Shown here in pieces: positions 1-7,812 of a stretch of 12,447 nucleotides of DNA. Origin of the DNA: Nanobdellota archaeon (GTDB taxonomy: Archaea > Nanobdellota > Nanobdellia > Pacearchaeales > GW2011-AR1); the NCBI GenBank assembly GCA_020056045.1, contig JAGVIM010000065.1:1-12447 (forward strand), written 5' to 3'. A program made the position numbers and the translations under genes. Position 1 is the stretch's first letter. Every line of letters begins with the position of its first letter. Below the pieces are notes generated by a model that had not been told where the DNA came from, made no database searches, and saw only the letters and a list, made by a program, of their open reading frames with translations.

Positions 1-36
1 TACTTTAGTAAGTGGATGCAATTTTTGTTGTTTTAA

Positions 37-200
37 TTTCTGAGCATCCTAAAAACAAGTGCCAATCAAACCACATTCGCCAGCAGGCGATTTTTTACCA
101 CAGTAAAAAACCTTTAGGACCTTAGAAATTTTTCAGAAAATTTCTGATGGTGCTCAGAAATCCATAAAAGATTTCTGACATGTGGTGGCACATTGTTTTT
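37..200. ncRNA. Multi-branched structured element (candidate non-coding RNA or structured 3' UTR)
   Basis: A long stem pairs 51-64 plus 71-76 with 180-191 plus 193-200, about 20 bp in total. It is interrupted by a one-base bulge at 192 and a six-base bulge at 65-70. Inside it are four hairpins in tandem: 77-81/86-90 (TCGCC/GGCGA, AGCA loop), 91-98/103-110 (T6AC/GTA6, loop CACA), 120-130/139-150 (one G-T wobble and one bulge) and 154-162/170-178 (perfect 9 bp, 7-base loop). The 3' arm runs into T7 at 196-202, as expected of a terminated transcript. The element lies upstream of the TATA box of the next gene, so it is not that gene's leader. It could be an independent RNA, the 3' end of an unseen upstream gene, or a DNA-level element such as a MITE remnant. 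The pairing is seen directly. Transcription and strand are inferred. I recognise no known RNA family. Confidence 0.5.
77..96 (+). terminator. Small GC hairpin followed by T6 (possible terminator)
   Basis: TCGCC (77-81) pairs with GGCGA (86-90) around an AGCA loop, and T6 (91-96) follows at once. Taken alone it looks like an intrinsic terminator for a gene entering from the left. It is also the first inner hairpin of the larger 51-200 fold, so both readings are possible. Confidence 0.3.
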
Positions 201-207
201 TTGATAA

Positions 208-244: not shown

Positions 245-793
245 ATGTCTAAAAAAGAGGGGATCAATAGAAGAGTTCTCTATATAGGTTTAGATGATTC
301 TAATCATGGCAACTATCCAGAATTAGCTCTTGCTTATTTTTCAACAATTACAGGAGATTTTTTATTTGATAATTTTTCTTTTCGTAGAGATCCCAATCTA
401 TTAAACAGACTCCAATCTCCAAAAAGAGACTATAGATTTTTATTATTTTCACAAAGCGACATTGTTCAAGGATTAGATAATCTGGCAGTAGCAGGTCCTA
501 GTTTGATTTTTCCATTTATAGAACAAAAAGGGCCTTTTGAAGGAGTAGTAATTGGTATAGATGGACATTTAAATTCAGCTAGTAAATCCTATTTAAAACA
601 AGAACTTTCAGATTATTTTGAAACAATATCTGTTAATGGATTTATTAAATATAAACAAGGTCATGGAAAAGATAAGTCCTATAGTCAACCTAGAATTCTT
701 GCCTGGGCAGATGCACAAGTTCATCATCTTGCATCAACTCTTTCTCTTAAGACCCTTCAAGCTCATGAAAAAAGAGTCCCTTTAAGACAATAG
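245..793 (+). CDS. Conserved-looking hypothetical protein, possible RNase H-like fold
   Basis: I do not recognise a named family. The product is 182 residues from the ATG at 245. A TTG at 230 in the same frame would add five residues but lies in the expected start-site region, so the ATG is preferred. Near the N-terminus a hydrophobic strand leads into acidic residues (YIGLDDSNHG). A second strand, GVVIGIDGHL near residue 105, also ends in Asp, and a C-terminal helix carries another Asp (PRILAWADAQVHH). Strand-Asp followed by a 'DG' strand and a late helix recalls the RNase HII/RNase H-like arrangement, but this is a weak fold-level guess. No signal peptide or membrane segment is visible. The gene is the first of three plus-strand genes and precedes an Fe-S nuclease and a helicase. 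It has its own TATA box, so co-transcription is not required. Confidence 0.75.
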   Translation: MSKKEGINRRVLYIGLDDSNHGNYPELALAYFSTITGDFLFDNFSFRRDPNLLNRLQSPKRDYRFLLFSQSDIVQGLDNLAVAGPSLIFPFIEQKGPFEGVVIGIDGHLNSASKSYLKQELSDYFETISVNGFIKYKQGHGKDKSYSQPRILAWADAQVHHLASTLSLKTLQAHEKRVPLRQ

Positions 794-1796: not shown

Positions 1797-2264
1797 ATGT
1801 GGTCATTATATGAAGATGAAAAAGAATTGAAGCCCTTGATTTTTTCAAATGGAAAATCCCAGGCAGACGTAGTTAAAGAAGTCATTGAAGGAGTCAATCA
1901 AGGCCATAAAATAATATTTATAAGGGGGATGATGGGCACAGGAAAATCTGCAATTGCCCTAAATCTCGCAAGGAAATTTGGAAAAACATCTATTGTTGTT
2001 CCAATAAAATCTCTTCAAGAACAATATATTAAAGACTATTCTGAAAACAAATATGTTCTTCTTAATGGAAAAAAACTAACAATCCAACCAATTCTTGGAA
2101 GGCAGAACTTTAAATGCAAATATCTTGAAGAAGATGAAATAAAAGGTCTTGAAAATATTCAAAAGAAAGAGATGCAAATCTTTTTGAAACTCTTCAAGAA
2201 AGATCAAGACCAAATAAGGCTAAAACAGATACCTGTGATAATAATTATCTTCCTTGTAAAATAG
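1797..2264 (+). CDS. XPD/DinG-like Fe-S helicase, N-terminal fragment (frameshifted)
   Basis: This frame encodes the first part of a superfamily 2 helicase of the XPD/DinG (DEAD_2) group. Residues 44-51, GMMGTGKS, form the Walker A motif. Motif Ia follows near residues 66-80 (SIVVPIKSLQEQY). GRQNFKC at 101-107 is the sequence that carries the first Fe-S cysteine in XPD-type helicases. After about codon 125 the frame no longer reads as family sequence and soon stops at 2262-2264. The remaining helicase motifs continue in the -1 frame, which is open from 2153. Restoring one base near the T5 run at 2181-2185 would join the two into about 643 residues. The break may be a real mutation or an assembly or sequencing error. 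If real, this fragment alone cannot be an active helicase. Confidence 0.8.
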   Translation: MWSLYEDEKELKPLIFSNGKSQADVVKEVIEGVNQGHKIIFIRGMMGTGKSAIALNLARKFGKTSIVVPIKSLQEQYIKDYSENKYVLLNGKKLTIQPILGRQNFKCKYLEEDEIKGLENIQKKEMQIFLKLFKKDQDQIRLKQIPVIIIIFLVK

Positions 2265-3727
2265 AAATAAAAGAAAAAAATCTTTCAATATTAAAAGAAT
2301 ATATTAAAAAAAATCCCGCTGTTAAACTTTCTAATTTTGATTCTGTTGAAGACATAAAAAGAATAACAATTGCTCCTGTTTGTGAGTATTGGTCACCAAT
2401 AGTTGCAGAAGAGTTTGAAACAAAAAGATTCAAGGATGCAATAAAAAAGCAATACACAGGAATAAACAAGAAAAAATATGCTTTTTACCAAAGAAAATCA
2501 GGTTGTCCTTATTATAATCAGTATAATGCCTATATTGATGCAGATGTTATAATTTTTAATAGTTTAAAATATAAAATTGAAAGTATGATGGGAAGAAAAC
2601 CTGCAACAAATATTGAGATAATTGATGAATGTGATGAATTTTTAGATAGTTTTGCAGAACAAGAACAGATCAATATTTCAAGACTTCAATTTTCCCTTAA
2701 TATGCTTTTTTCTCCAGATCCAAAAATAAAAGAAACAATTGATAAGTTAATAGATATAACAAATGCAATCAAGGTTTCTGAAAAATTAAAAGAATCAGAT
2801 GAAATTCATGAGTTAAACAATACTCTTGTTCAGGAATTGTTAGAAACTGTTCTTGAAAATCCAGATCTTTTGGATTTAATTGAATCAGATGACCATAACT
2901 ATTTATTTCATCTAGACAAGGCTGCAAAAAAGTTTTATGATTTCATGGATGAAACTTTTTTTTCAGTTGAAAAAAGAGAAAATGATAAAATAATCACTTT
3001 AGTAACAACAAACTTAGATAAGCAACTTAAAACAATGGTTGATAATAATAAAGTTGTTGTAATGATGTCTGGAACAATTCATTCTGAAACGGTTTTAAAA
3101 AATATTTTTGGTCTTGATACATTTAAAGTAATAGAAGCAGAAATTGAACATCAAGGAGAACTAATAAAATGTAAGCATGGTTATGAAGTAGATTGCAGCT
3201 ATGAAAGCTTTAGATCAAAAAGAGTAACAAGAGAAACCTATCTAAAAGCTCTTTCAAAATCCATCAGCTGTGCAAAATCTCCAACCCTTGTTCATGTCAA
3301 TAGTTTTTCAGATCTCCCAACAGATCAGGAAAAAGCTCTGTTTAGTTTAGATAATCTTCCAACTCAAATAGAATTAATAGAAGAGCAAAACAATGATCCA
3401 ACAGCCAAGCGAGTAAGGGAATTTAGAGATAAAAAAACAAAAATTCTATTCACAACAAAATGCAATAGGGGTGTTGATTTTCCAGGAGACATATGCAATA
3501 GCATAGTTATCACAAGATTTCCCTATCCCAACATATCATCAATCTTTTGGAAAATTCTCAAGAGAAACAAGCCTCAACATTTCATGTCCTTTTACATGGA
3601 TAAGTCAAGGCGAGAGCTTATGCAAAAGGTTTATCGAGGTTTGCGAAGTAAAACTGATAAAGTTTATCTTTTATCTCCTGATAAAAGGGTGTTGGATTTT
3701 AATTTTGACAGAGATCCTAAAAAATAA
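2153..3727 (+). CDS. XPD/DinG-like Fe-S helicase, C-terminal part (frameshift continuation)
   Basis: This frame is open from 2153 to the stop at 3725-3727, and its first ATG is at 2585. It carries the rest of the helicase. Cysteines at codons 2234, 2255, 2381 and 2504 (the last in SGCPYY) are candidate ligands for the Fe-S cluster begun by Cys107 of the N-terminal part. Next are a DEAH-box variant, IIDECDEF, at 2618-2641, a motif-III-like MMSGT near 3065, the segment ILFTTKCNRGVDFPG (motif V region), and a motif VI variant, QKVYRGLRSKTD, near 3622-3657. Good family sequence lies upstream of the ATG at 2585 in this frame, so that ATG is not the natural start. XPD/DinG enzymes unwind DNA 5' to 3' in repair and in some defence systems. 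The protein is cytoplasmic with no membrane segments. Function depends on whether the frameshift is real. Confidence 0.8.
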   Translation, partial: KYSKERDANLFETLQERSRPNKAKTDTCDNNYLPCKIEIKEKNLSILKEYIKKNPAVKLSNFDSVEDIKRITIAPVCEYWSPIVAEEFETKRFKDAIKKQYTGINKKKYAFYQRKSGCPYYNQYNAYIDADVIIFNSLKYKIESMMGRKPATNIEIIDECDEFLDSFAEQEQINISRLQFSLNMLFSPDPKIKETIDKLIDITNAIKVSEKLKESDEIHELNNTLVQELLETVLENPDLLDLIESDDHNYLFHLDKAAKKFYDFMDETFFSVEKRENDKIITLVTTNLDKQLKTMVDNNKVVVMMSGTIHSETVLKNIFGLDTFKVIEAEIEHQGELIKCKHGYEVDCSYESFRSKRVTRETYLKALSKSISCAKSPTLVHVNSFSDLPTDQEKALFSLDNLPTQIELIEEQNNDPTAKRVREFRDKKTKILFTTKCNRGVDFPGDICNSIVITRFPYPNISSIFWKILKRNKPQHFMSFYMDKSRRELMQKVYRGLRSKTDKVYLLSPDKRVLDFNFDRDPKK

Positions 3728-6631: not shown

Positions 6632-7180
6632 TTACATAATTTCCTTTGGAACTTCAAAGGGCTTATTTGAAAAAACAATATCTCCTGCCTGGGAAATAGC
6701 TTTCTTACAGAGAGTATTTACTTCATCATATCTTTCATTTATTGATTCAATCTCAATTGCAGAACTGTATCTGGCTTCTTCTCTTTTGTCAACATCAGAC
6801 TCTTCACCTTTTTTTGAATAAACTGTTATTCTTTTAATAAAATCATCCTCATATTCAATTAATTCTTTTAACCTTGCATATTCAAGAAATAATGCAGTGT
6901 ATTTTTGACTCCGAGATTCAATCCCAAATTTCGAAAGAATTGCGAGTGCACAATAATAAAGAGTATAAAACCATTCTTCAGGAATCTTATAGTCAAATCC
7001 TTTTTCCTTATAGAAATCGCAAAGTTCTAATTCTCTTTTGGCTTTTTCAATGTATTCTCTAGCTTTTTTGGGATCAGAATCTATGATTATCAAACCTTTG
7101 TGTTTTATTTCATTTTTCTCATCTCTTTCAGATTTGTTGAAACATTCTTTTAATGTTTTTTCTAGTTCTTCTAAATTCAT
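6632..7180 (-). CDS. HEPN-domain protein, partner of the nucleotidyltransferase
   Basis: The 182-residue protein has a HEPN-type helical core. AREYIEKAKRELELCDFYKE is followed by WFYTLYYCALAILSKFGIES and the C-terminal REEARYSSAIEIES helix. HEPN proteins paired with minimal nucleotidyltransferases are usually RNase toxins. The classical catalytic Rx4-6H motif is not visible, and the equivalent helix reads R-E-E-A-R-Y instead. This may be a COG2250-like or inactive subtype, or it may use other residues. Its ATG overlaps the stop of the upstream nucleotidyltransferase gene by one base (TAATG), a sign of coupled translation and a fixed protein ratio. The tail VFSNKPFEVPKEIM resembles ends of other archaeal HEPN proteins. 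The pair call is strong; toxicity is inferred from the family. Confidence 0.8.
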   Translation of the reverse strand: MNLEELEKTLKECFNKSERDEKNEIKHKGLIIIDSDPKKAREYIEKAKRELELCDFYKEKGFDYKIPEEWFYTLYYCALAILSKFGIESRSQKYTALFLEYARLKELIEYEDDFIKRITVYSKKGEESDVDKREEARYSSAIEIESINERYDEVNTLCKKAISQAGDIVFSNKPFEVPKEIM

Positions 7181-7812
7181 TATCCTAACTCTCCTATTAA
7201 TTTAACATAATCATCCTGCCCAAATAAGATAACTCCTTTTTTTAAAGCATCAACATATGCTTTATTATGTTTTTTAAGTTCATTTTTAAATTCTTCTTTA
7301 GTTAAATCAATTAAATGGATTTTTTTTGCTTGAGATTTCTGCATCTTGTTTTTTATCTCATCTATAGATTTAAAATTTTTTTTGTCTGAAACAATTAAAA
7401 TATCAATATCATTTGCTTCTTTAGGATTAGTTAGCATACTTCCAAATAAGATAATAAAATCAGAATATTTTTCTAATAGGGCAAATTCAAATCTCCATCT
7501 TTCGTTATTCAGAGCTTCTTTTGTAAGGAGCAATGAAATTGTCTTTAAAGCAAGTAAATTTTTAAATTCAAGTTCAACTTTTACAACACTTCTTTTTGTA
7601 TTCGCTATAGATTTAAGAGAAATCAATCTATCTTCAGATAATTTTCTCAAGGTTTTCCAAAGTCCCTGCCTAGTTATTCCAAGGGAAAGAGCAAGAGATG
7701 TTGCAGTATGTTCAAAAAAAGGCTCTTTAATCAATATTTTTAATATCTTTTCAAAAGTCTTTTCAGATGTTTTAGTTATATTCTTATTATTATCTTTATT
7801 ATTTGTTTTCAT
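7180..7812 (-). CDS. HTH-nucleotidyltransferase (MNT-type antitoxin-like)
   Basis: This 210-residue protein fuses a winged helix-turn-helix to a minimal nucleotidyltransferase. Residues about 20-70 form the winged helix (TATSLALSLGITRQGLWKTLRKL). The nucleotidyltransferase core follows at about 105-170, with the signature ILFGSMLTNPKEANDIDILIV: the GS pair and the D-x-D metal ligands are present. In MNT/HEPN systems the nucleotidyltransferase neutralises the HEPN toxin, in HepT/MntA by adding AMP to a tyrosine. The built-in HTH suggests that this protein also represses its own operon, and repeated GTTGATAG words lie in the promoter. The HEPN gene follows with a one-base overlap. The start at 7812 is the only early ATG in frame. 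It could also be a regulator with no toxin role. Confidence 0.85.
   Translation of the reverse strand: MKTNNKDNNKNITKTSEKTFEKILKILIKEPFFEHTATSLALSLGITRQGLWKTLRKLSEDRLISLKSIANTKRSVVKVELEFKNLLALKTISLLLTKEALNNERWRFEFALLEKYSDFIILFGSMLTNPKEANDIDILIVSDKKNFKSIDEIKNKMQKSQAKKIHLIDLTKEEFKNELKKHNKAYVDALKKGVILFGQDDYVKLIGELG

Follow-up and report, generated by a model that had tools for sequence, protein, structure and literature searches.

A dispersed, non-coding element with two end hairpins in Pacearchaeota-type archaea, probably a PATE-like transposable element

The palindrome-associated transposable elements (PATEs) of Haloquadratum walsbyi are, in the available part of their description, short and non-coding, with palindromes near their termini, no target duplication and many copies (PMC3119063). 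The same text records them as targets of other elements, and reports new PATE insertions in H. walsbyi although its IS200-type transposases are disrupted, intact ones being scarce (PMC3119063). Elements of the IS200/IS605 family, as outlined in the available sections of a second source, carry a hairpin at each end and insert 3′ of a specific tetranucleotide, with neither terminal inverted repeats nor duplications; possible guide sequences that pair with the cut site lie at the 5′ base of each hairpin (PMC7290912). The small mobile repeats SMR-A and SMR-B of H. walsbyi, in the available account, are transposase-free units of about 110 bases that produce no target duplication and have prominent terminal inverted repeats (PMC3119063).

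The locus compared here with these systems lies at the start of contig JAGVIM010000065.1 of a Nanobdellota archaeon of the order Pacearchaeales, the window being the whole 12,447-nucleotide stretch analyzed. An earlier note had singled out a multi-branched fold at 51–200, enclosed by a 20-bp stem with two bulges, and had considered it unlikely to arise by chance. Recomputation confirms both points. The minimum free energy of 51–200 is −54.9 kcal/mol (shuffle mean −25.57, sd 3.39, z = −8.65), and none of 200 dinucleotide shuffles folds as well; the 20-bp closing stem pairs 51–58 with 193–200, 59–63 with 187–191 and 70–76 with 180–186, leaving bulges of six bases (64–69) and one base (192). The four hairpins proposed inside it were recovered at essentially the same positions (77–90, 91–110, 116–154 and 155–177), and the run of seven T (196–202) is a portion of the terminal stem. 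Folding this strand under DNA parameters yields z = −8.86, and the opposite strand also folds strongly (z = −6.37). An Rfam search returned no match above the gathering threshold, the best sub-threshold match being LPR10 (20.6 bits vs 69).

The fold at 51–200 makes up the right-hand portion of a dispersed non-coding element, of which this is one copy; the layout is GTC-hairpin-GAGCATCC-long hairpin-GAT, and the family ends are GTC-hairpin-GAGCATCC at the left and ...TTTTTTTGAT at the right. The original extent thus captured a real structure but fell short of the unit, which also takes in 1–50 and the GAT at 203–205. Units measure about 110–240 bases, and the 101 copies delimited below span 108–238 bases, which is less than a transposase gene needs. 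The window copy (1–205, plus strand) is 5′-incomplete: it matches at 93% a 225-base copy on another contig of the same genome (C80), base 19 of which matches the window start, so that the contig begins 18 bases inside the element. Positions 1–43 (plus strand) hold the 3′ part of the left-end hairpin, as judged from the copy alignment and from left-stem pairing in relatives, most of the 5′ arm lying beyond the contig start. The conserved linker GAGCATCC between the end hairpins follows at 42–49 (plus strand), with CATCC present in 98/101 delimited and 27/27 distant copies, both sets having been picked by patterns or a model that favor CATCC. The 5′ arm of the terminal stem occupies 46–63 (plus strand; 51–63 from the fold, and the pairing of 46–48 with 203–205 from the consensus fold), and its 3′ arm, together with the right end ...TTGTTTTTTTGAT, occupies 180–205 (plus strand), as placed by the fold and the delimited copies.

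The element is dispersed. Positions 40–215, searched against the genome that contains the window (G000; 1.31 Mb in 262 contigs, 73% complete), gave 58 matches at E ≤ 10, with C80 as the one second full copy; many others keep just the left part (query 1–37 or 1–80) or the right arm (141–173), and their middles differ. It was the side-by-side alignment of copies that placed the start of the unit upstream of the window. DNA searches at E ≤ 0.001 found matches in 18 of 36 genomes, and 10 of 180 genomes across the order contain the exact right-end pattern, with the window's genome counted in both; the reversed control pattern was absent from the matches listed. The richest genome (G011) holds 157 exact right ends (66 + 91), and several contigs of G000 and G011 begin or end within a copy. 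The covariance scan that the earlier note had suggested, with a model built from short copies, places the family in 40/180 genomes and 26/96 genera of the order, own included, where the sampled genomes are drafts of about 0.3–1.7 Mb and copy numbers are lower bounds, up to 18 candidates having been scored per genome. The window's own copy scores weakly under this short-copy model (27.5 bits, E = 0.0015, partial), so that it is the match to C80, together with the ends in common, that places it in the family. A pattern scan of named genomes gave at least 111 stretches; 110 of those listed have titles that name Nanoarchaeota, Pacearchaeota or Woesearchaeota, and the remaining one is from Aggregatibacter, where no left core was found within 400 bases. 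Viral contigs scanned with three patterns gave no matches, and no match to the element was found in phage and plasmid records.

Both end hairpins are conserved. In 28 diverse short copies, 97.1% of cells pair and 16 of 32 pairs show changes on both sides, which are the compensatory changes that the earlier note had looked to for support. None of 500 shuffles reaches the observed value for pairing or for paired changes, a count that is not a probability because the sequences are related, and slid structures pair in 38.6–56.2% of cells. The outer left stem pairs in 244/252 cells (shuffled mean 208.7, maximum 220), and the terminal A/T stem is mostly invariant among the short copies. In 27 distant copies, a set biased towards the covariance model with which it was found, both arms of the terminal stem carry new sequence (such as CACGAGTGCC with GGCACATCGTG and AAAAGTTC with GAACTTTT); the final GAT is kept in 27/27, and TNAT-GTC stands at or just before the start in 23/27. 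These paired changes indicate that both end hairpins are maintained and that the structure is under selection.

A strong fold with covariation suits RNA and single-stranded DNA alike, and a structured ncRNA that serves a cellular function and is multicopy by chance would be compatible with this part of the evidence. It is nevertheless a very improbable explanation, since the copies lie in unrelated places and some interrupt genes, their hairpins are nested and reassorted, the left edge shows a target preference and no Rfam family matches. What was found is a dispersed multicopy element rather than a single-copy RNA gene. An undescribed ncRNA working with the neighboring proteins, a possibility raised in the earlier note, is not supported either: copies are spread over many unrelated sites, some of them apparently within genes. 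The next gene in the window (245–793, plus strand), which we do not count as part of the element, matches no Pfam family and is followed by a PDDEXK_1 nuclease and helicase pieces. Homologues of this gene occur in 3 of 32 genomes including the window's own, at 34% and 30% identity in the other two, and at neither of these two loci was a recognizable element seen, contrary to the expectation that the element would recur beside homologous genes. The stretch at 208–215, between element and gene, is one we take to be TATA-like, which suggests that the element does not form part of the leader of the gene at 245. Elsewhere in the window, a helicase-like gene lies in two frames (1797–2264 and 2585–3727, within 1797–3727), possibly through a frameshift, and two adjacent minus-strand genes at 6632–7812, one with the look of a nucleotidyltransferase and the other maybe HEPN-like from their translations by eye, are reminiscent of a toxin–antitoxin pair.

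The boundaries of the element were defined on 101 copies delimited with both flanks, 62 of them in loci mostly from Nanoarchaeota archaeon C20_maxbin.123. TNAT precedes 90/101 copies vs 51/909 positions further upstream, and the four bases before the first G are TTAT in 58, TAAT in 21, TCAT in 6, TGAT in 5, ATAT in 4 and others in 7; T is strongly preferred at −4 as well. GAT ends all 101 copies, as the finder nearly requires. Across loci L121–L230, a left core was located no more than 400 bases away for 115 of 126 right ends; the distance is 68–73 in 61 cases, 103–106 in 50 and another value in 4, the other 11 right ends having no left core or too little sequence. Direct repeats between the flanks occur at chance level (k = 3, 4 vs 3.5 expected; k = 4, 1 vs 1.4; k = 5, 2 vs 1.2), and no target duplication of 3–8 bases was seen above chance in the 101 copies; a 2-base AT duplication is indistinguishable from none because the right end itself finishes in AT. 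Insertion into palindromes was considered and rejected, the inverted flanks matching at chance.

These ends bear on whether the unit could be a small mobile repeat or an ordinary inverted-repeat MITE, moved via terminal inverted repeats. The first and last eight bases, inverted, do match at 4–7 of 8 positions, with 6 or 7 in 36/101 copies (a comparison made without a shuffled control), and the right-end sequence (ATCAAAAAAACAA...) stands at both ends, inverted and symmetric, in two copies (L205, minus strand, ~3374; L206, minus strand, ~1061). The two end architectures differ, however, a GTC-hairpin at the left vs an ATC/GAT stem at the right, a target is preferred on one side only, and duplications of three or more bases are not seen, which together make this reading at least as improbable as the RNA gene. 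The earlier suggestion of a folded DNA element such as a MITE end accordingly holds in that the element is multicopy and transposase-free, but a plain inverted-repeat MITE is disfavored by the unlike ends. Integron attC sites are bulged hairpins with conserved ends and a variable center. The element looks similar in outline, yet inspection of the loci by eye brought up neither arrays resembling cassettes nor the motifs of attC sites, so that an attC-like recombination site is scarcely credible here.

Interrupted genes gave a view of the empty site. When the flanks were joined, 12 frames of at least 330 bases stayed open across the junction, which without homologues is little proof alone. In L128, the copy interrupts an ADP-ribosylglycohydrolase-like gene. 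Residue 165 of the 175-residue left piece aligns to residue 161 of the solved homologue 8za7 (an alignment that is weak alone, domain E = 0.11), and residue 2 of the right piece, searched separately, aligns to residue 174. The 12 intervening positions of 8za7 equal ten left residues, the junction codon and one right residue; this spacing fits the prediction of an insertion after TTAT without loss or gain of bases. A second copy (L127) interrupts a diphthine synthase-like gene, which gave no exact empty site because no PDB match was found for its C-terminal piece.

The center of the element takes up extra hairpins. In the window copy these are a two-hairpin module at 77–110 (plus strand), common to many copies, and a nested, inverted, left-end-like two-hairpin module at 117–181 (minus strand), the first 32 bases of which are identical to the left ends of L121 and L190. 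The same 32-base hairpin recurs inside the loops of L077, L078 and L148, which are other copies, and the shorter elements L121 and L190 have it as their own left end, placed behind TTAAT; we read this as a sign that a nested hairpin can take over as a new end. A second repeat family, in genome G009 (L074–L076 and L280; CTCCCCAAATC..GTACAAATCCGAAGGATTTG), likewise contains this nested two-hairpin module within its loop. IS200-type right ends in genome G001 (L101, L102 and L106) nearly share the module at 77–110 and contain a hairpin almost the same as one of those in the window copy (GATTTTTTGC..GCAAAAAACCTTTAGG), as if hairpin modules moved between elements. In several copies (L025 at ~70–141, L015 at ~30–86, L021 at ~60–127, L071 and L081), the TTTA loop at the apex of the right-end hairpin seems to be occupied by a different insertion sequence, whose ends are like ACAGGCTG.

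Candidate mobilizing enzymes were sought among the Y1, TnpB and IS110 families. Y1 transposases occur in 12 of 32 relatives and in 59 of 161 genomes of the order; among 12 element-bearing or related genomes, 7 have a hit at E ≤ 10 and 3 a hit over the cut-off. None over the cut-off was found in the incomplete drafts G000, G009 and G117, and the richest genome, also an incomplete draft, has a Y1 fragment only, directly beside a copy: in L262 (contig C59), a full element at the contig start (1–260) lies immediately before what is left of the 3′ part of a truncated Y1 transposase gene. Comparison of 63 loci by profile (some overlapping) and inspection of 11 more by eye, which cover part of all Y1 hits, brought up no Y1 element that has these ends; of the 63, L262 alone matches, the next best values being E = 0.0015 for the left end and E = 0.045 for the right. 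As a full end, no palindrome like those of an IS605-type transposon was found in these loci; a single central hairpin is common to the element and the right ends in G001. A Y1 hit is present in 19 of 40 element-bearing genomes, with no clear link to the element, the two genome samples being different. TnpB was found in 2 of 17 genomes (1 over the cut-off) and over the cut-off in 0 of 9 in a second set. Of the open reading frames that recur near copies in G011 and on the named contigs, the commonest are the element read through, and none of the others listed had the look of a transposase by eye.

This search leaves room for a mobile element that depends on a different recombinase, one leaving AT as a 2-base core or duplication, such as an RNA-guided IS110-like enzyme, with the fold perhaps acting as RNA. 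AT is common to the left flank and the right end in 95/101 copies, as a 2-base core would allow, and no matching Y1 enzyme was found in the loci compared. The strong preference for T at −4 points away from a core of this kind. Among nine element-bearing genomes, moreover, an IS110 transposase reaches E ≤ 1 in three and passes the cut-off in just two; paired element ends were seen at neither of those two loci, the short motif matches there being attributable to chance. We consider such an element improbable.

The reading that we prefer is a non-coding, non-autonomous transposable element of the PATE kind, that is, palindrome-associated and IS200/IS605-like, and this is probably correct, because published features of such elements are matched by its hairpin at each end, its 4-base target on one side, its lack of coding capacity and the absence of any visible duplication. 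In such an element, the ends would fold as hairpins of single-stranded DNA, and a transposase supplied in trans, presumably of the Y1 type, would recognize them, cutting the left end after TNAT and the right end after TGAT; the excised strand would then be reinserted 3′ of another TNAT. The CATC of the linker, which is the complement of the right end plus the first base (GAT/G), may guide both ends. The enzyme itself is one that we infer, since no transposase with these ends was met in the loci compared. A bolder reading, which is unlikely, is a distinct class of hairpin transposon across this DPANN order, with a single internal CATC guide for both ends, nested hairpins able to serve as new ends and a mobilizing enzyme other than a canonical Y1/TnpB pair.

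Taken as PATE-like, the element is a variant found in DPANN archaea, its distinctive features being the missing enzyme and the nested ends, and none of the titles listed from the open-licence PMC literature names one of this kind in Pacearchaeota or Woesearchaeota. REP elements with RAYT transposases are likewise dispersed hairpins with a short conserved foot; the present element differs in that its two hairpins form a defined unit and a target is preferred, and no RAYT-like gene was identified. As far as the available text describes PATEs, it shares with them its short, non-coding form, end palindromes, many copies, invasion by other elements and apparent mobility where intact IS200-type transposases are scarce, whereas its hairpins directly adjoin the termini, extra nested hairpins are acquired and can become new ends, the host is a DPANN archaeon and no parent IS605-type element bearing the same ends was found (PMC3119063). 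Compared with the IS200/IS605 family as covered by the available sections, it has a hairpin at each end, a tetranucleotide target and a putative guide complementary to the cut site, but it lacks tnpA and tnpB and its putative guide lies between the two hairpins (PMC7290912). With the SMRs, within the same limits of the source, it has in common the lack of a transposase and a length of ~110 bases, and no target duplication of three or more bases is seen here; SMRs, however, have prominent terminal inverted repeats (PMC3119063), while in the present element only 4–7 of the 8 terminal bases match.

The element would help to explain the broken assemblies of Pacearchaeota-type archaea, and it serves as a warning that such folds are not to be read as RNA genes. 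Having spread this far without a recognized enzyme, it would offer a fresh case on which to test guide-directed single-strand transposition.
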